Below are positions 14,707-47,869 of a stretch of 64,000 bases of DNA, in pieces. Each line of letters opens with the position of its first letter. Position 1 is the first letter of the stretch. A program made the translations under genes and the position numbers. The stretch covers positions 1-64,000 of IMG/VR virus record IMGVR_UViG_3300043410_000565. One strand, 5' to 3'. Below the pieces are notes generated by a model. The model worked only from the letters and a program-made list of their open reading frames with translations, did not search any database and was not told where the DNA came from. This DNA is from a virus.

Positions 14707-14898
14707 AGGATCCTTTCAGCAACATAAAATGCAATGAAAGCCTCGTGTCGGTGGTGCAAATCCACCCTTCTCCACTGAGTGTATCAGTGAGTGTGAGTCA
14801 CTTTAAACATAGCCAGAGGACGCTCAGGAGTTCGGCTGGTATATTCAGTGGAGAAGTAGCTCAGTTAGTAGAGCAGAGTTAAAAGCGGATCCTGTTGA
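14707..14898 (+). ncRNA. bracket element B containing a permuted tRNA-like module
   Basis: AGGATCC (14707-14713) pairs with GGATCCT (14887-14893), CAGCAA inside, GTTG after. Order inside: T-arm GGTGG/CCACC (14750-14766), acceptor 3' strand CTTCTCC (14767-14773), 75-nt spacer, acceptor 5' strand GGAGAAG (14850-14856), D-arm GCTC-AGTTAGTA-GAGC (14859-14874). The acceptor helix continues perfectly into ACTGA/TCAGT, 12 bp in all. No anticodon arm is evident; the bracket stem takes its place, as the P2 helix does in tmRNA. CCA is not encoded. Confidence 0.72.
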
Positions 14899-14997: not shown

Positions 14998-15093
14998 AGG
15001 TTATTTGCAGCAAAACAAAATTCATAGGTTCGACTCCTATATTACTCACCAAAATCCGAGTGATTGCATGGCGCAAACAAGATAACCTGTTGT
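14998..15093 (+). ncRNA. bracket element G containing a permuted tRNA-like module with encoded CCA
   Basis: AGGTTAT (14998-15004) pairs with ATAACCT (15082-15088), GCAGCAA inside, GTTG after. Inside: T-arm ATAGG/CCTAT with loop TTCGACT (15024-15040), acceptor 3' strand ATTACTC (15041-15047) with A and an encoded CCA (15049-15051), 6-nt spacer, acceptor 5' strand GAGTGAT (15058-15064), small D-arm TTGC-ATGGC-GCAA. The acceptor pairs over 7 bp with one wobble. The encoded CCA followed by the 5' strand is strong evidence for permutation. No anticodon arm. Confidence 0.74.
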
Positions 15094-15117: not shown

Positions 15118-15687
15118 ATGCCAAGTGTATTTTTAGTAAGCGATACGCACTTTGGTCACGCTGGTGTATGTAAATTCACCGAAGCAGACGGAGTGACAAA
15201 AATCCGACCGTGGACTGATCCAGAAGAAATGGATGAAGCCATGGTCAAGATGTGGAACGAAACAGTCAAGCCGACTGATAAAGTTTACCACTTAGGTGAC
15301 GTTGTCATTAACCGCAAGGCATTAAAGATTATGCATCGGTTGAACGGTGACAAGGTTTTAATTAAGGGCAACCACGATATCTTTAGATTAGAGGAATATA
15401 CTCCATTCTTCAGAGACATTCGAGGGAGCCACGTGATGAACGGTATGATTTTAACTCATATCCCAGTTCATGAATCTAACTTGTATCGTTTCGGTACTAA
15501 CATCCACGGTCACACTCATACCAATCGCGTTATGATGACTGATCAATACGGTGTTACTCGAATCGACCCTCGTTACCAATGTGTCTGTGTTGAACAGACA
15601 GATTTTAGACCAATCTTATTTGAAGACGTAATTAAGCGTATCAAAGAAGAAGGTGGATCAGTCGGTTTCAAGAACGGTAACTATTAA
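15118..15687 (+). CDS. calcineurin-like metallophosphoesterase
   Basis: 189 residues. Metal motifs in order: SDTHFGH near the start, GDVV, GNHD, then THIPVH and HGHTH. A small phage phosphoesterase; substrate unknown, and tRNA or nucleotide phosphates are possible from its position inside the tRNA array. The start at 15118 has AGAGGTG upstream. It begins 26 nt after bracket element G, so this RNA lies in its leader. Confidence 0.85.
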   Translation: MPSVFLVSDTHFGHAGVCKFTEADGVTKIRPWTDPEEMDEAMVKMWNETVKPTDKVYHLGDVVINRKALKIMHRLNGDKVLIKGNHDIFRLEEYTPFFRDIRGSHVMNGMILTHIPVHESNLYRFGTNIHGHTHTNRVMMTDQYGVTRIDPRYQCVCVEQTDFRPILFEDVIKRIKEEGGSVGFKNGNY

Positions 15688-16510: not shown

Positions 16511-16586
16511 GCACGATTCGTCTATCGGTTTAGGACACCAGCCTTTCACGTTGGTAAGACGGGTTCGATTCCCGTATCGTGTACCA
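16511..16586 (+). tRNA. tRNA-Glu(TTC), second copy
   Basis: Acceptor GCACGAT/ATCGTGT, anticodon loop CTTTCAC on CCAGC/GTTGG, CCA encoded. Differs widely from the copy at 14006. Confidence 0.92.
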
Positions 16587-16686
16587 TATCAAAACGCATT
16601 GATGACAGTTAAACGGATAAGCAGGAATTTATTCCTCCGTGTTATACAGAAGGCTTTGTATGACGGTCAATGCGTTTTGATATGGT
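16583..16686 (+). ncRNA. long-stem spacer RNA overlapping the CCA of tRNA-Glu
   Basis: A perfect 20-bp inverted repeat, 16583-16602 with 16667-16686, whose first four bases are the ACCA end of tRNA-Glu. Two hairpins sit inside (AGGAA/TTCCT and ATACA/TGTAT). The tRNA end is paired until cut. Confidence 0.55.
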
Positions 16687-16925
16687 ATAGATTTTATACA
16701 CATGACACTTCAATGTCAGCAAGAGAAAGACACTAAATTCGAGTAGATGGCCATCGAAAGATTTAGTAGAGCACAGTCGGCGTGATTCCGTGCAAAACTA
16801 AGAATCTGTGGTTGAGTATCCCAAGTGACGTACCGAGTCCGTGCAGCTGCTTTAACGATGCGGTGAATGGTATCAATAACGATGGTGATACATTTGAGGT
16901 TGTCAGTTGTATAAAATTTAATGGA
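16687..16925 (+). ncRNA. structured untranslated region before the HNH gene
   Basis: No credible ORF over about 240 nt. Helices seen: ACTAAAT/ATTTAGT enclosing GATGGCCATC, and GCAC/GTGC enclosing CGG/CCG. Probably a leader RNA or further ncRNA; nothing recognised. Confidence 0.35.
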
Positions 16926-16966
16926 AGCGGATTAGAAATCTGCTTTTTACTAAATAAGTAAAAAGG
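16926..16966 (+). terminator. terminator/attenuator before the HNH gene
   Basis: AGCGGATT/AATCTGCT followed by TTTTT. The T-run can alternatively pair as TTTTTACT/AGTAAAAA just before the GGAG of the HNH gene, an attenuator-like arrangement. Confidence 0.55.
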
Positions 16967-16973
16967 AGATAAT

Positions 16974-17414
16974 ATGAAGCAACAGAAAAACAAATTTACG
17001 GATCAAGAAGTAATTGATGCGTATAATGAAGAAAAACATTTAGGTAAACTCGCAGTAAAATTCAAAGTTCCCCATATTCAAATGTGGAGAGTTTGTAAGA
17101 AACTAGGGTTGAGTTTTGGTAATGGTGGTGGAGCAAAAACTAAAATACCTCTTGAAGAGATTTTAGCAGGTGACCATCCTTATTATCAAACTCTAAAACT
17201 TAAAAGAAGATTGATCAAAGAAGGTATCTTAGAGAATAAATGTTCTTGTTGTGGTATAACTGAATGGCAAGGTAGAGAAATCGTGCAACAATTAGACCAT
17301 ATTAATGGAGATTCTTCTGATCATAGAAAAGATAATTTAAGATTACTATGTCCAAACTGTCATTCTCAGACTGACACTTGGTGTGGTAAACAAAATGGAT
17401 GCTTAGTCCCGTAA
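16974..17414 (+). CDS. HNH homing endonuclease
   Basis: 146 residues. N-terminal helix-turn-helix-like segment (LGKLAVKFKVPHIQMWRVCKKLG), then CSCCG...LDHINGDSSDHRKDNLRLLCPNCHSQ, the zinc-supported HNH nuclease motif. The last six codons run into tRNA-Tyr, so the ORF uses tRNA DNA for its C-terminus. A free-standing homing nuclease inserted in the tRNA array is the likely history. GGAG lies upstream of the ATG. Confidence 0.88.
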   Translation: MKQQKNKFTDQEVIDAYNEEKHLGKLAVKFKVPHIQMWRVCKKLGLSFGNGGGAKTKIPLEEILAGDHPYYQTLKLKRRLIKEGILENKCSCCGITEWQGREIVQQLDHINGDSSDHRKDNLRLLCPNCHSQTDTWCGKQNGCLVP

Positions 17415-17483
17415 TGGTATCGGGGGTAGACTGTAAATCTATTGGCTCAGCCCTTCTCTGTTCGAATCGGAGAGCATCCACCA
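17397..17483 (+). tRNA. tRNA-Tyr(GTA)
   Basis: 87-nt class II tRNA, loop CTGTAAA, acceptor GGATGCT/AGCATCC, CCA encoded. The first 18 nt are also HNH coding sequence. Confidence 0.92.
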
Positions 17484-17569: not shown

Positions 17570-17636
17570 AGGATCCTTACCGCAAAACTAAAACATTTCA
17601 CTTTATGGCTGTGAAAAGCAAAGCGGATCCTGTTGT
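17570..17636 (+). ncRNA. bracket element D (compact form)
   Basis: AGGATCC (17570-17576) with GGATCCT (17625-17631); CCGCAA follows the first strand, GTTGT the second. Interior hairpin TTTCAC/GTGAAA and A-rich linkers. Lies 17 nt before the next ATG, so also a leader structure. Confidence 0.65.
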
Positions 17637-18580: not shown

Positions 18581-18648
18581 AGAATCGGTTCAGCAAATAA
18601 AATGCATTCAACTTGTAATTGAAAAAAGCAAAAAAACGATTCTGTTGT
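18581..18648 (+). ncRNA. bracket element E (compact form)
   Basis: AGAATCG (18581-18587) with CGATTCT (18637-18643); CAGCAA inside, GTTGT after. Interior GCA/TGC and TTCAA/TTGAA hairpins and an A-rich strand. Precedes the next ATG by 16 nt. Confidence 0.65.
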
Positions 18649-22028: not shown

Positions 22029-22104
22029 GCTTCTATGGCAGAGTGGCTTATGCGACCGTCTCTAAAACGGGTGAAGGTGGGTTCAAATCCCACTAGGAGC
22101 ACCA
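22029..22104 (+). tRNA. tRNA-Sup(CTA), amber suppressor
   Basis: Exactly 76 nt with every arm in register: acceptor GCTTCTA/TAGGAGC, D-arm, anticodon stem ACCGT/ACGGG, loop CTCTAAA with U33 and anticodon C34-U35-A36, T-arm GTGGG/CCCAC, A73, CCA. This anticodon reads UAG. The amino acid it carries cannot be deduced. Confidence 0.82.
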
Positions 22105-22211: not shown

Positions 22212-22589
22212 ATGTGTATCGAACTAAAAATTAAATCTAAACATCTTGCTCTTGAGCCTTCTATTATTCGTTGTGAAGAAAGAAAACTCAAGAAGCGTAT
22301 GAAACATAACCGTGATGGCGAAACATCGTATTGGGAACTTGCTAGACAGCGAGATAACCTAATCCTTCATCGTCGTTGGAATGTGAGAAATGAATCTCGT
22401 GCCACTGAGTTGGCTCGTGCATATCTCGCTGGAAAACCTTATTCTCACGTTGAAAAGAAGCGTAAGGATGAGACAATGTTTCAGATGATGATCGTTCCTC
22501 GTATTGTTGCGATGGTTACCAAATATGGGACCAAAGAACAACGATCCGTTGATCGAAAAATTATTCAAGAATGGTCAAAAATCGCTTGA
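22212..22589 (+). CDS. basic hypothetical protein
   Basis: 125 residues, highly charged (RCEERKLKKRMKHNRDGE), helical. AAAGGAA upstream. No family recognised; may bind RNA. Confidence 0.65.
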   Translation: MCIELKIKSKHLALEPSIIRCEERKLKKRMKHNRDGETSYWELARQRDNLILHRRWNVRNESRATELARAYLAGKPYSHVEKKRKDETMFQMMIVPRIVAMVTKYGTKEQRSVDRKIIQEWSKIA

Positions 22590-22614
22590 CTTTAATTCAG
22601 GAATAAGGTATAAT
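22586..22614 (+). promoter_or_regulatory. promoter of a large structured RNA
   Basis: TTGACT (22586-22591), 17 bp beginning TTAATTC, TATAAT (22609-22614). The -35 box overlaps the previous stop codon. ATG at 22621 opens only a 13-residue frame. Confidence 0.9.
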
Positions 22615-22620
22615 TAATGT

Positions 22621-22900
22621 ATGAATTGGGATGAATACAGCATAGTAAACTACTATGACTAAAGAGTAGCCCACGCACAGGAGGAAACATCGTAAGGTGT
22701 CAATTTTGTGGGCTAGGTTGGAAAGACTATTGCATGCTCTTATGCCTCGTGAACCCTAGTAGGATTCAGATAGTTACACCCGAATGTGTACCAAGTTGCC
22801 GTAACTTGTACGGATATGCCAGTGAACTGGATGATTCTCGTGGGGTTTGCCGAAAGGGACACGATGGTTTAAGTAACTAAAATGATCAACCCGATCATCC
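22621..22900 (+). ncRNA. about 280-nt structured ncRNA, own promoter, upstream of the Ro-like gene
   Basis: Helices in order: CATAGTA/TACTATG, TAGCCCAC/GTGGGCTA enclosing a GTAA-capped hairpin, ACTAT/ATAGT enclosing GAACCCTA/TAGGATTC, TACAC/GTGTA, CAAGTT/AACTTG, CCAG-TGAA-CTGG, CGTG/CACG, GATC/GATC. No useful ORF. A separate promoter follows, so this is a stand-alone RNA unit. Not recognisable as RNase P, 6S or a group I intron. Confidence 0.62.
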
Positions 22901-22917
22901 CGTTGTTTAAATTTTAC

Positions 22918-22946
22918 TTGACTTTAATTCAGAAGTCAGGTATAAT
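22918..22946 (+). promoter_or_regulatory. promoter of the Ro-like gene
   Basis: TTGACT (22918-22923), 17 bp beginning TTAATTC, TATAAT (22941-22946). Confidence 0.9.
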
Positions 22947-22960
22947 TGATGTATTGAGTA

Positions 22961-23116
22961 AGGTTAGGTTCAGCAAACCTAAAACTAGGTGGCAAATCTC
23001 CTCGGAGACTGCTACCACTACGCTGGCACGTGGATCTTTGATCCACCCGAAAGGGTTTGTGCGCCAAGAGTTTCGATTTCTCTTGTAAATCAAAAAGTAG
23101 GAAACTAACCTGTTGT
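22961..23116 (+). ncRNA. bracket element H, leader of the Ro-like gene
   Basis: AGGTTAG (22961-22967) pairs with CTAACCT (23105-23111); CAGCAA inside, GTTGT after. Starts about 8 nt into the transcript. Inside: GGTGGCA/TGCTACC enclosing TCTCC/GGAGA; TGGCAC/GTG..CCA enclosing GTGGATC/GATCCAC and CCC-GAAA-GGG; then a hairpin AAGAG/CTCTT with a TTCGATT loop like a T-loop. A tRNA-like but not tRNA structure placed before the Ro-like ORF. Confidence 0.62.
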
Positions 23117-23155: not shown

Positions 23156-24592
23156 ATGAATACTTTTGTTTCAGCCGTTCAAAATCAAGAAGCACGCACT
23201 ACTAACGGCATGCGTGCCCGTAAGTCTACTGCCAATGCGTGCGTAGACCTTTTCTTCAAAATCGGAGCTTCACGTGGTAAAGACATTACCAAGGAATTCG
23301 TTGCAGCTTATGTTGAGAACCGTGAGATCGCTCTGCGTATCGCACAATGGGTTCGTGACGTTCGTGGTGGCGCAGGTGAACGTGAAATCTTCCGTCAAAT
23401 CCTAAAGTACCTAGACAAGCACCACCCAACTGATGCAGCTTTGCTGTTGATGAAAGTACCAGAAATTGGTCGTTGGGATGACATCTTTGTTGTAGAAAAC
23501 AAAGAGAACAAGTATAAGGCATTCGCCATGCTTGGTGACGCACTACGTGCTAAGAACGGCTTGGCTGCTAAGTGGACTCCTCGTAAGGGTGACTTGGCTG
23601 TTGAGATCCGTCAATTCTTCGGCATGTCGCCAAAGTTTTATCGTAAGTCCTTGGTTGAATTGACTAAGGTTGTTGAAACTGACATGTGTGCAAAGAACTG
23701 GGACTCGATTAACTTCAGCCATGTTCCATCTCTGGCTCACTCTCGTTACAAGAAGGCATTCTTCCGTAACACTCAAGAGTATGCCAAGTATGTTGCTGAA
23801 CTGACTAAGGATCCTAAGGATCGTACAGTTCAAGTCAAAATCAATGCAGGTGCGGTTTATCCATACGATGTGTTGAAGGGTGTTATCGGTTCTTACAACA
23901 AGAACTATAACGCAACTGAACTAGGTGCATTGCAAGCCCAATGGGATGCTATGGAAAACTTTGTTGGTGATGCTAACGTATTGCCACTGGTTGACGTATC
24001 AGGCTCAATGTCTTGCCGTGCTGGTGGCGCGAAGTCTACTTCTGCCACTACTTGTATGGATGTTGCAGTTTCTCTTGGTCTGTATATCGCAGACAAGAAC
24101 AAGGGTAAGTTCAAGGATACATTCCTAACTTTCTCTTCTTCTCCAGAGTTGCTGCACCTGAAGGGTAACATCGTTCAGAAGTGCCAACAAATGGTGCGTT
24201 CTAACTGGGGTATGTCTACTGACTTGGTTCGTGCCATGGATAAGATCCTGAGCGTTGCTAAGCAAGGTGGTGTACCACAAGAAGAAATGCCAGAAATGTT
24301 GTTGATCATGTCTGACATGCAATTCAACCAATGCGCTCGTTTCGACGACTCCGCAATGCAAATGATGGCACGTAAGTTTGAAGCAGCAGGATACGAACTG
24401 CCAAAGATCGTGTTCTGGAACCTAAACGCTGCGGACAATGTCCCAGTGAAGTACGATGCTTCGAACGTGGCATTGATCTCTGGTTTCAGTCCACAGATCA
24501 TGGTATCTGTTCTGGGTGGTGATACTGAAAAGTTCACCCCAGAAGCTATCATGATGAAAGCAATCGGTGTAGACCGATATGCTCTAGCCTAA
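23156..24592 (+). CDS. TROVE/Ro60-like RNA-binding protein with vWA domain
   Basis: 478 residues. The N-terminal two thirds are helical (ALRIAQWVRDVRGGAGEREIFRQIL, LLMKVPEIGRWDD) as in TROVE/DUF2828 HEAT-like rings; the C-terminus has LVDVSGSMS (MIDAS DxSxS) and LLIMSDMQF of a vWA domain. Bacterial Ro60 (Rsr) binds Y RNAs and misfolded RNAs and works with nucleases and RNA-repair proteins. Structured RNAs lie directly before and after this gene, as with bacterial rsr-Y RNA loci. GGAGAT precedes the ATG at 23156; a TTG at 23132 is less likely. Confidence 0.8.
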   Translation: MNTFVSAVQNQEARTTNGMRARKSTANACVDLFFKIGASRGKDITKEFVAAYVENREIALRIAQWVRDVRGGAGEREIFRQILKYLDKHHPTDAALLLMKVPEIGRWDDIFVVENKENKYKAFAMLGDALRAKNGLAAKWTPRKGDLAVEIRQFFGMSPKFYRKSLVELTKVVETDMCAKNWDSINFSHVPSLAHSRYKKAFFRNTQEYAKYVAELTKDPKDRTVQVKINAGAVYPYDVLKGVIGSYNKNYNATELGALQAQWDAMENFVGDANVLPLVDVSGSMSCRAGGAKSTSATTCMDVAVSLGLYIADKNKGKFKDTFLTFSSSPELLHLKGNIVQKCQQMVRSNWGMSTDLVRAMDKILSVAKQGGVPQEEMPEMLLIMSDMQFNQCARFDDSAMQMMARKFEAAGYELPKIVFWNLNAADNVPVKYDASNVALISGFSPQIMVSVLGGDTEKFTPEAIMMKAIGVDRYALA

Positions 24593-46378: not shown

Positions 46379-47031
46379 TGAAAACATTTATACATCATGA
46401 TTTTGCGAAGTTAGAAAGGGATACAGCTGCTGACGGTCGTCGAGTTTATAAGACGCCAGAAGGTAAGCTGTATCCTTCAGTCACTTCTATCACAGGTGTT
46501 AATAGCACCTTCAACAAGAGTGCGTGGATTCAGCGTGTTGGCGTTGACGAAGCCAACCGTATTACTCAGCGAGCACTTGACCGTGGCACTCGCATCCATT
46601 CTCTCTGTGAAAACTTCTTACTTGGTAATGAAGTAAAGATTGATATGTTTGATCAAGACATGTGGAGCACTATGCTACCTTTGTTGAACAAGATCGACAA
46701 TATTCATTGCCTTGAAACTCCACTGTATTCTGACTTTCTACAAGCAGCTGGTACAGTTGACTGTATTGCGGAGTATGAAGGTAAGTTATCCGTCATCGAC
46801 TTTAAGACTTCATCTAGGGTTAAAGAGCGTGATGATATTCACAACTACTTCGAGCAGACTGCAGCTTATGCCGTTATGTTTGAAGAACGAACAGGTATTC
46901 CAATCGGTCGTTTAATTATCTTGATGGTGATTGACGATGATGCACCAAGAGTGTTTATTGAGAAACGTGATGGTTGGATTGCAGGATTCCGTAAGTCACG
47001 TATGGATTATCGTCAAAAGTATAATATATAG
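46378..47031 (+). CDS. PD-(D/E)XK exonuclease (RecB/MGME1-like)
   Basis: 217 residues. RGTRIHSLCENFL, AGTVDCIAEYEGKLSVIDFKTSSR and NYFEQTAAYAVMFEERTG fit the RecB-type nuclease fold (H, D, DxK, QxxxY). Probably processes ssDNA ends. Ends in TAG, 4 nt before the tmRNA acceptor piece. Confidence 0.88.
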   Translation: MKTFIHHDFAKLERDTAADGRRVYKTPEGKLYPSVTSITGVNSTFNKSAWIQRVGVDEANRITQRALDRGTRIHSLCENFLLGNEVKIDMFDQDMWSTMLPLLNKIDNIHCLETPLYSDFLQAAGTVDCIAEYEGKLSVIDFKTSSRVKERDDIHNYFEQTAAYAVMFEERTGIPIGRLIILMVIDDDAPRVFIEKRDGWIAGFRKSRMDYRQKYNI

Positions 47032-47035
47032 AATA

Positions 47036-47348
47036 TTGCTGTAATCCCTTCAAAGCGAAGGACTTCTGGACGGGGGTTCGACTCCCCCCATCTCCACCAA
47101 AAGAGAATTGACACGGTGTACAACGTGCATCACTGAGTAATCAAATGGTTCAGACGTAGAGCTGAAATTCAGTTTTCTTTTGATGGGGATGCCATGGTTT
47201 CGACAGGGGTAGATAGTAGCGACGGCAGCACGACAGGAGTAGTCGTTAAAAGCAAATCAAAGTAAATGCAAACGATGAAGTTTTCGCATTGGCAGCCTAA
47301 ACGCTGACTAGGGTTTCGATGGGTTTCCTCGTAACAGAATAACCCATC
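47036..47348 (+). ncRNA. ssrA: circularly permuted (two-piece) tmRNA gene
   Basis: The acceptor piece comes first: T-arm GGGGG-TTCGACT-CCCCC (47072-47088), acceptor strand CATCTCC (47089-47095), A and CCA (47097-47099). After an 85-nt insert the coding piece starts GGGGATG (47185-47191). It continues through TTTCGACAGGGG and the tag reading frame GCA AAC GAT GAA GTT TTC GCA TTG GCA GCC TAA (47268-47300), and ends in a GATGGGTT/AACCCATC hairpin (47318-47348). The acceptor stem has G3-U70, the alanine mark. The P2 helix forms between GCTGTAAT/CCCTT (47038-47050) and AGGGG/ATAGTAGC (47204-47220). CAAAAGA/TCTTTTG brings the two ends together. Tag ANDEVFALAA. Confidence 0.93.
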
Positions 47349-47365
47349 ACTAATTCGGAGATATT

Positions 47366-47869
47366 ATGATTGGTGTTGTATTAGGTAATGGTCCGAGTCG
47401 TGAACATTACGACAGAAAAGGTGATATTGTTCTTGGATGTAATATTCCCAATGAAGAACATAGCGTAGATGCCACTGTTATTTGCGATGAAGAGATTGCG
47501 TGGATTATTAAAAATGACTTGACTTTAATTCAGGTTCCAGTTATAATATCTACTAAGGTGTTTGAAAAGTTTAAGGAATTCCGTATCGAGGATCAATTCA
47601 TAATCTTGGATGTTTTCAAACCCAAAGACTGGTACAATGCTGCCCACTATGCAGCCGAGTATCTAATTAAGAATACTGAGTGCGACGAGATTCATTTGTG
47701 GGGGTGTGATTCTATTTTTGAGAATACAGTTTCCTCTACAACTGGTAAACTAATCCAACAAACAACAATTGGCGATACTAGGTTTATCAAGAATTGGCGT
47801 AGAGTTTGGAATGAGATTCATATCGACAACCCCGATGTGCATTTCGTAGCTATGAGAATGCCTAAATAA
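47366..47869 (+). CDS. conserved phage protein, DUF115-like start
   Basis: 167 residues beginning MIGVVLGNGPSREHY; GNGPS start and later LWGCDS recall the DUF115/MptE-like fold. Function unknown. A canonical early promoter lies inside the gene (47519-47547). Confidence 0.7.
   Translation: MIGVVLGNGPSREHYDRKGDIVLGCNIPNEEHSVDATVICDEEIAWIIKNDLTLIQVPVIISTKVFEKFKEFRIEDQFIILDVFKPKDWYNAAHYAAEYLIKNTECDEIHLWGCDSIFENTVSSTTGKLIQQTTIGDTRFIKNWRRVWNEIHIDNPDVHFVAMRMPK
47519..47547 (+). promoter_or_regulatory. early promoter inside a coding sequence
   Basis: TTGACT (47519-47524), 17 bp beginning TTAATTC, TATAAT (47542-47547), encoding LTLIQVPVII of the host gene. Could supply transcripts to 47933 and beyond. 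Confidence 0.7.
47862..47868 (+). promoter_or_regulatory. possible late promoter (CTAAATA)
   Basis: CTAAATA at the end of the 47366 gene, 64 bp before the next ATG. Confidence 0.4.

Follow-up and report, generated by a model that had tools for sequence, protein, structure and literature searches.

The question raised by this locus is whether an acceptor-like strand with an encoded CCA, lying directly upstream of its pairing partner in a phage tRNA cluster, belongs to a genuine permuted tRNA-like RNA, and what such an RNA would be used for. The window analysed here comprises 64,000 nucleotides, positions 1 to 64,000 of a virus record of 160,850 bases (IMGVR_UViG_3300043410_000565) that contains 30 predicted tRNAs as well as a permuted tmRNA. 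The RNA in question was designated element G, and its parts are the following.

14998-15092, plus strand: element G, candidate Y-RNA-like RNA with a permuted acceptor/T-arm module (scaffold scan, fold, covariation)
14998-15006, plus strand: 5' strand of the end stem P1, AGGTTATTT (fold; covariation over 7 bp in 10 relatives)
15008-15012, plus strand: conserved CAGCA motif, at a fixed 10 bases from the P1 start
15024-15040, plus strand: T-arm with the loop TTCGACT (sequence; three of five pairs covary)
15041-15047, plus strand: 3' strand of the acceptor stem, ATTACTC (sequence, cis-pairing statistics, covariation)
15048-15051, plus strand: discriminator A (15048) and encoded CCA (15049-15051) (sequence; most relatives of the class keep both)
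15052-15057, plus strand: linker AAATCC between the CCA and the acceptor 5' strand (a GAAA-capped hairpin in some relatives)
15058-15064, plus strand: 5' strand of the acceptor stem, GAGTGAT (sequence, cis-pairing statistics, covariation)
15065-15075, plus strand: short D-like hairpin TGC-ATGGC-GCA with a conserved GG at 15070-15071 (fold; alignment)
15080-15088, plus strand: 3' strand of P1, AGATAACCT (covariation, fold)
15089-15092, plus strand: conserved terminal GTTG (scaffold scan, alignment)

The bases given in the original prediction, ATTACTC-A-CCA, six bases and GAGTGAT, were found to be exact by direct reading of 15024-15064. They follow a T-arm that reads ATAGG-TTCGACT-CCTAT, and ATTACTC and GAGTGAT form seven pairs, one of which is G-U. 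As read from the bases, the acceptor, discriminator and CCA are in the correct tRNA register, and position 3:70 is G-C. The minimum-energy fold of 14998-15092 consisted of the 9-bp end stem, the T-arm, the 7-bp acceptor with a 10-base loop and the short D-like hairpin. The folding energy by itself corresponded to a z of only -1.5. No anticodon arm was detected in the fold or the alignment of element G, and the D-arm is only a stub.

In the alignment of 10 relatives of the element G class, 97.8% of the cells pair and 11 of the 18 pairs change on both sides. The covariation score was 0.61, compared with 0.18 for shuffled alignments, none of 500 being as high, and at most 0.17 for slid controls. 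Compensatory changes were present in all three helices, including P1 with four of seven covarying pairs, so that the earlier statement that chance pairing is unlikely was borne out. The acceptor strands of 36 non-redundant scaffold elements, whose 3' strands include 30 different sequences, pair in 97% of the cases in cis and in 53% between elements, a difference that is somewhat inflated because the elements were detected by requiring a pairing. The GG in the loop of the D-stub is nearly invariant in the class. In tRNAs, the D-loop GG contacts the T-loop; as the D-stub keeps these bases, an elbow-like contact between the D-stub and the T-loop may be possible in element G.

The strongest support for the main claim of the original prediction, namely that the tRNA-like module is permuted and its CCA encoded, was obtained from natural-order counterparts in related phages (L045, L135, L198). 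In these, the acceptor 5' strand and the D-stub come first, followed by the closed P1 hairpin with CAGCA after it, then the T-arm and lastly the acceptor 3' strand with N-CCA, and they align with the permuted forms only once rotated: the mean alignment scores were +21 to +27 for rotated, about -8 for unrotated and about -4 for shuffled sequences. Since the same RNA exists in related phages with its parts ordered as in a tRNA, the permutation is genuine. Element G's own ends sit where a tRNA has its anticodon arm. In Vibrio phage KVP40 (L131:304-419), Citrobacter phage Ci1 (L128:12012-12125) and Cronobacter phage S13 (L129:11896-12138), full tRNAs were found to bear the scaffold hairpin between the D-stem and the anticodon stem; they are annotated as tRNA-Pseudo, tRNA-OTHER or tRNA-Ser. 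An RNA present in both natural and permuted order constitutes a clean evolutionary case of circular permutation.

Among the class members obtained without selection for CCA, A-CCA was present in window/L002, L053 and L003, and ACCC in L319; the natural-order relative L045, obtained in the same way, ends in G-CCA. Five further members (L136, L145, L164, L167, L193) were found by a search demanding CCA and are thus no independent evidence for it. The CCA-bearing members have a linker of at least 9 bases counted from the discriminator, in some cases with a GAAA-capped hairpin, whereas in most CCA-less members the acceptor is closed by 3 to 7 bases.

Element G is not the only RNA of its kind in the window. 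At least nine elements share a scaffold with an end stem of 7-9 bp, AGNNNNN...NNNNNCT, followed by CAGCA. The 5' side AG(G/A)NNNNNNN-CAGCA and the 3' side NNNN(C/T)CTGTTG recur at 13442, 14514, 14707, 14998, 18581, 22628 and 22961, between and after tRNAs, and variants were found at 17570 and, by eye, at 13931. The sister elements are listed below.

13442-13561, plus strand: permuted near-complete tRNA with the anticodon loop CTGGAAA, T-arm, acceptor and D-arm (scaffold scan, fold)
13931-14000, plus strand: scaffold element with the anticodon-loop mimic CTTTTAA (Lys UUU) (read by eye)
14514-14617, plus strand: mini-tRNA element with a hairpin, the anticodon arm CTTTCAA and a T-arm (scan, fold; Rfam tRNA 38.1 bits at 14537-14601)
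14707-14897, plus strand: permuted tRNA-like element with an extended acceptor and a long intervening segment, no CCA (sequence, scaffold scan)
17570-17635, plus strand: short scaffold element, CCGCA variant (scaffold scan)
18581-18647, plus strand: short scaffold element with the anticodon-loop mimic CTTGTAA (Thr UGU) (scan, fold)
22628-22905, plus strand: large scaffold element upstream of the Ro60 gene, with a promoter-like site at 22586-22614 (scan)
22961-23115, plus strand: large scaffold element directly upstream of the Ro60 gene, with a promoter-like site at 22918-22946 (scan)

Both large elements start about 10-15 bases past their strong promoter-like sites, and no recognisable tRNA parts were detected in their inserts. 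The scaffold was absent from the rest of the phage genome (64001-160850 scanned). A pseudoknot between CAGCA and the terminal UGUUG was considered and rejected, as the closed forms have GACA, GATA or GTTTT loops instead of GTTG and the zero-length linker would be sterically awkward. A sister element was also compared with the Pistol ribozyme (16.6 bits) and the Dictyostelium Class I RNA (19.6 bits), both under the cut-offs; the latter score came from 13443-13491, where a stem and a UUACAGCAA motif resemble that RNA, probably by coincidence.

In the viral contigs fetched via the Ro60 and phosphoesterase proteins, 310 scaffold matches were located on the coding strand and 23 on the other, with CAGCA at the fixed distance of 10. 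The strict pattern, which fixes AGG, CAGCAA and CCTGTTG and thereby only 3 of the P1 pairs, was detected in at least 120 viral stretches, and among the matches listed 120 of 123 distinct viral ones had at least 7 end-stem pairs. In 84,980 bacterial and archaeal genomes (257 billion bases) the same pattern matched 19 times, once with 7 pairs; the other 18 lack the stem and are therefore attributed to chance, by which a bacterial origin was rejected. Because the viral matches form the stem and the prokaryotic ones almost never do, the scaffold is real and essentially phage-borne. It is present in the cultured Citrobacter phage Ci1, Pseudomonas phage Milchi and Synechococcus phage BUCT-ZZ01, which makes the idea accessible to laboratory tests.

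These distributions bear on the possibility that element G is a decaying tRNA gene or a recombination scar in the tRNA array. The cluster is dense and contains degenerate tRNAs, and T-arm and acceptor remnants are common debris; against this, every helix carries compensatory changes, the scaffold spacing is fixed across hundreds of elements in related viral loci, and CCA and GG recur at the same places. Decay is thus strongly disfavoured, with a probability close to negligible.

The tRNA part borne by the scaffold is exchangeable, as seen over hundreds of related viral loci, and can be an anticodon stem-loop, an acceptor/T-arm module, a mini-tRNA or a permuted whole tRNA. Of the 68 non-redundant short elements (55-75 nt), 26 have a 7-nt loop with U33, R37 and at least 5 pairs (0.9 in shuffles), and in 18 the loop is identical to a real tRNA loop (0.09 in shuffles). 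Thr UGU and Lys UUU are the most frequent anticodons, ahead of Ser, Asn, Cys and Arg; in about half of the short elements no recognisable anticodon loop was found. The elements of 100-120 nt contain a T-arm, an acceptor and a D-arm, as parts of mini-tRNAs or permuted tRNAs, and the element G class combines T-arm, acceptor, CCA and D-stub without an anticodon arm. The swapped parts on one scaffold form a natural probe set, in which each module predicts the class of enzyme that it would engage.

The putative protein partner of such RNAs is encoded by the gene that follows the two large elements.

23156-24592, plus strand: gene of a predicted Ro60-like (TROVE-vWA) protein, DUF2828/DUF7788 (profile matches; predicted structure)

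The 478-residue product falls into a PHROGs family named RNA-binding protein. A sequence search with it gave no match to solved chains, and a fold search was therefore needed. The AlphaFold model (mean pLDDT 73) had matches over nearly its full length: Z was 17-19 for the Ro60 of Thermus phage phiLo and for a TROVE-domain entry, 14-15 for the Xenopus and human Ro60 proteins, and 12 for D. radiodurans Rsr. The TROVE ring and vWA fold were recognised, with 392 of the 478 residues aligned to the TROVE entry at Z 19.3, and the product is predicted to be a Ro60 protein. Homologues occur in 681 phage records, in mycobacteriophages under the name "Ro-like RNA binding protein".

The scaffold and this gene are linked. 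Of 45 loci, 35 have a scaffold element that ends no more than 250 bp ahead of the Ro60 gene, the background being 4.8%, and a close Ro60 relative is encoded by 12 of 14 long scaffold-bearing contigs as compared with 5 of 14 other contigs, in which the relatives are more distant. A structured RNA independent of Ro60, with a scaffold that serves to stabilise tRNA-part decoys or to protect the ends of transcripts and with a merely coincidental proximity to the Ro60 gene, would agree with the two scaffold contigs of 14 lacking a Ro60 gene, which may be incomplete, and with several phages whose distant Ro60 proteins are accompanied by few or no scaffold matches. The frequent adjacency and the YrlA-like topology described below make such independence rather unlikely.

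Y RNAs are partners of Ro60 and mimics of tRNA. In YrlA (Rfam RF02553), as in element G, the paired ends form a stem that replaces the anticodon arm, and the order of T-arm, acceptor 3' strand, loop, acceptor 5' strand and D-arm is the same. The families also share a Ro60 gene nearby, element G itself being 8 kb from it within the tRNA cluster. In contrast to YrlA, element G has an encoded CCA, a 10-base acceptor loop in place of about three bases in the YrlA consensus, a D-arm reduced to a stub and a different scaffold sequence, AG...CAGCA...CTGTTG. With the Rfam YrlA model, element G was not matched even at E values as high as 10 and no match was found in this phage at E 0.001, and its cut-off of 69 bits was reached by no element tested; 13442-13561 scored 16.5 bits, and a sister element in L018 scored 41.3 bits across the whole model. 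Bacterial Y RNAs have been reported as tRNA mimics, and YrlA was suggested to be a competitive inhibitor of a tRNA nuclease (PMC7790460); a bacterial Y RNA, as in the YrlA structure (PDB 6CU1), has been stated to overlay tRNA once a circular permutation is allowed for (PMC11472068). According to PMC12282133, Chen et al. 2014 reported phage Y RNAs for mycobacteriophages, and the same text suggests them for Listeria phage CKA15. The mycobacteriophage case resembles the present family in having a phage Ro60 homologue with nearby small RNAs; in the text examined, exchangeable anticodon-loop or CCA-acceptor modules are not described.

On these grounds, and judging from sequence comparison, element G is probably a small structured RNA of a Y-RNA-like phage family that acts with the phage Ro60 as a tRNA mimic. 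It is read so, and not as a translation tRNA, because of the scaffold with exchangeable parts and the link to the Ro60 gene. An end-pairing stem, a permuted tRNA-like module and a Ro60 gene in the same genome were found; Ro60 binding would be expected by analogy, with the scaffold end stem as the binding part, as in known Y RNAs. The 8-kb distance of element G from the Ro60 gene, the missing YrlA model match, the short elements without an anticodon loop and the large elements without recognisable tRNA parts were counted against this reading. The original prediction did not include the lack of an anticodon arm, the large family associated with Ro60 or the sharing of the outer stem as a common scaffold.

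The presence of an open acceptor in correct register raises a further alternative, a permuted tRNA precursor that is matured by RNase P at 15057/15058 and to a CCA end at 15051 and serves as a tRNA or tmRNA-like acceptor in translation. The same phage has a permuted tmRNA at 46986-47391, with the tag ANDEVFALAA and an A-CCA followed by an intervening segment and GGGGATG, and the natural-order relatives resemble processable pre-tRNAs. Element G is like the permuted tmRNA (RF04321 and the beta-proteobacterial form) in that the 3' acceptor half with A-CCA lies upstream of the 5' half and a segment between the halves is to be removed. It differs in the absence of a tag reading frame and an mRNA-like domain, in a much shorter linker and in lacking G3-U70, the alanine-charging pair of the phage tmRNA, by which Ala-tRNA-like charging of element G was rejected. 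By ARAGORN, the sole tmRNA was the one at 47007 and element G gave no tmRNA match. In red algal and archaeal permuted tRNA genes, the 3' half also lies upstream of the 5' half with a short linker, and splicing at the anticodon loop gives complete tRNAs, whereas in element G the anticodon arm is absent and replaced by the scaffold stem. With no anticodon arm, a stub D-arm and acceptor loops of 3-7 bases elsewhere in the family, which leave little room for ends, a role in translation is very unlikely.

Returning to the Y-RNA-like reading, the module of element G would mimic an acceptor end and could thereby engage RNase P, the CCA-adding enzyme, 3' exonucleases and tRNA-attacking effectors, and the sister elements with anticodon loops would in like manner engage enzymes that act on the anticodon. 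The most likely purpose would be that of a bait or adaptor which protects or redirects tRNA metabolism in infection; the panel of anticodon loops appears to fit the idea of a tRNA-nuclease inhibitor better than a single adaptor role. Less certainly, RNase P and 3' processing could cut out the six-base linker and leave an RNA of two pieces whose CCA end is free. The similar construction of the permuted tmRNA in this phage makes such maturation plausible, but the 10-nt loop that connects the CCA with the leader may give RNase P little space. The full proposal, a Ro60 particle whose RNAs with interchangeable tRNA parts are decoys against tRNA-targeting host defences, with element G cut at both acceptor ends and two circular permutations in the family, is tentative and has a modest chance of being right as a whole. 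In the literature examined, the open acceptor with its CCA, the modules with anticodon loops and the occurrence of two permutations were undescribed, an earlier description of the exact scaffold being possible, and neither such phage decoys nor DUF2828 in phages were the subject of any paper found. The family bears on what the tRNA mimicry of Y RNAs serves.

The original prediction had further assigned element G a special role as leader of the gene downstream.

15118-15687, plus strand: metallophosphoesterase gene (PF12850, phrog_547)

Element G ends 25 bases ahead of the start codon, and similarly short spacing occurs in several relatives, as would be expected of a cis-acting leader controlling this gene, possibly through tRNA-processing enzymes. 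However, a scaffold element lies at most 150 bp upstream in only 10 of 50 phosphoesterase loci, the classes differ, with lengths of about 60 to 120 nt, and the same scaffold is also found between tRNAs and ahead of unrelated genes. The leader role was accordingly not upheld, since other element types fill the slot in relatives, and is considered unlikely. In the two closest relatives, L048 and L049, the slot holds a 59-nt Thr UGU element. Varied tRNA-part modules were observed in this slot at L048:1754-1812, L049:4919-4977, L053:4881-4976 and L054:4877-4977, which suggests cassette exchange before the phosphoesterase gene.

Other observations were made in the surrounding tRNA cluster. The region 16586-17482 is structured and intron-like and contains a small HNH endonuclease ORF (16974-17414), the end of which overlaps a tRNA-Tyr(GTA)-like sequence absent from the ARAGORN predictions. 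Degenerate or undetected tRNAs resembling Ser, Asn and Ala were noticed at 13647-13734, about 14176-14256 and about 14352-14428. At 22029-22104 there is a tRNA with the anticodon CUA (tRNA-Pyl by ARAGORN), a possible amber suppressor.
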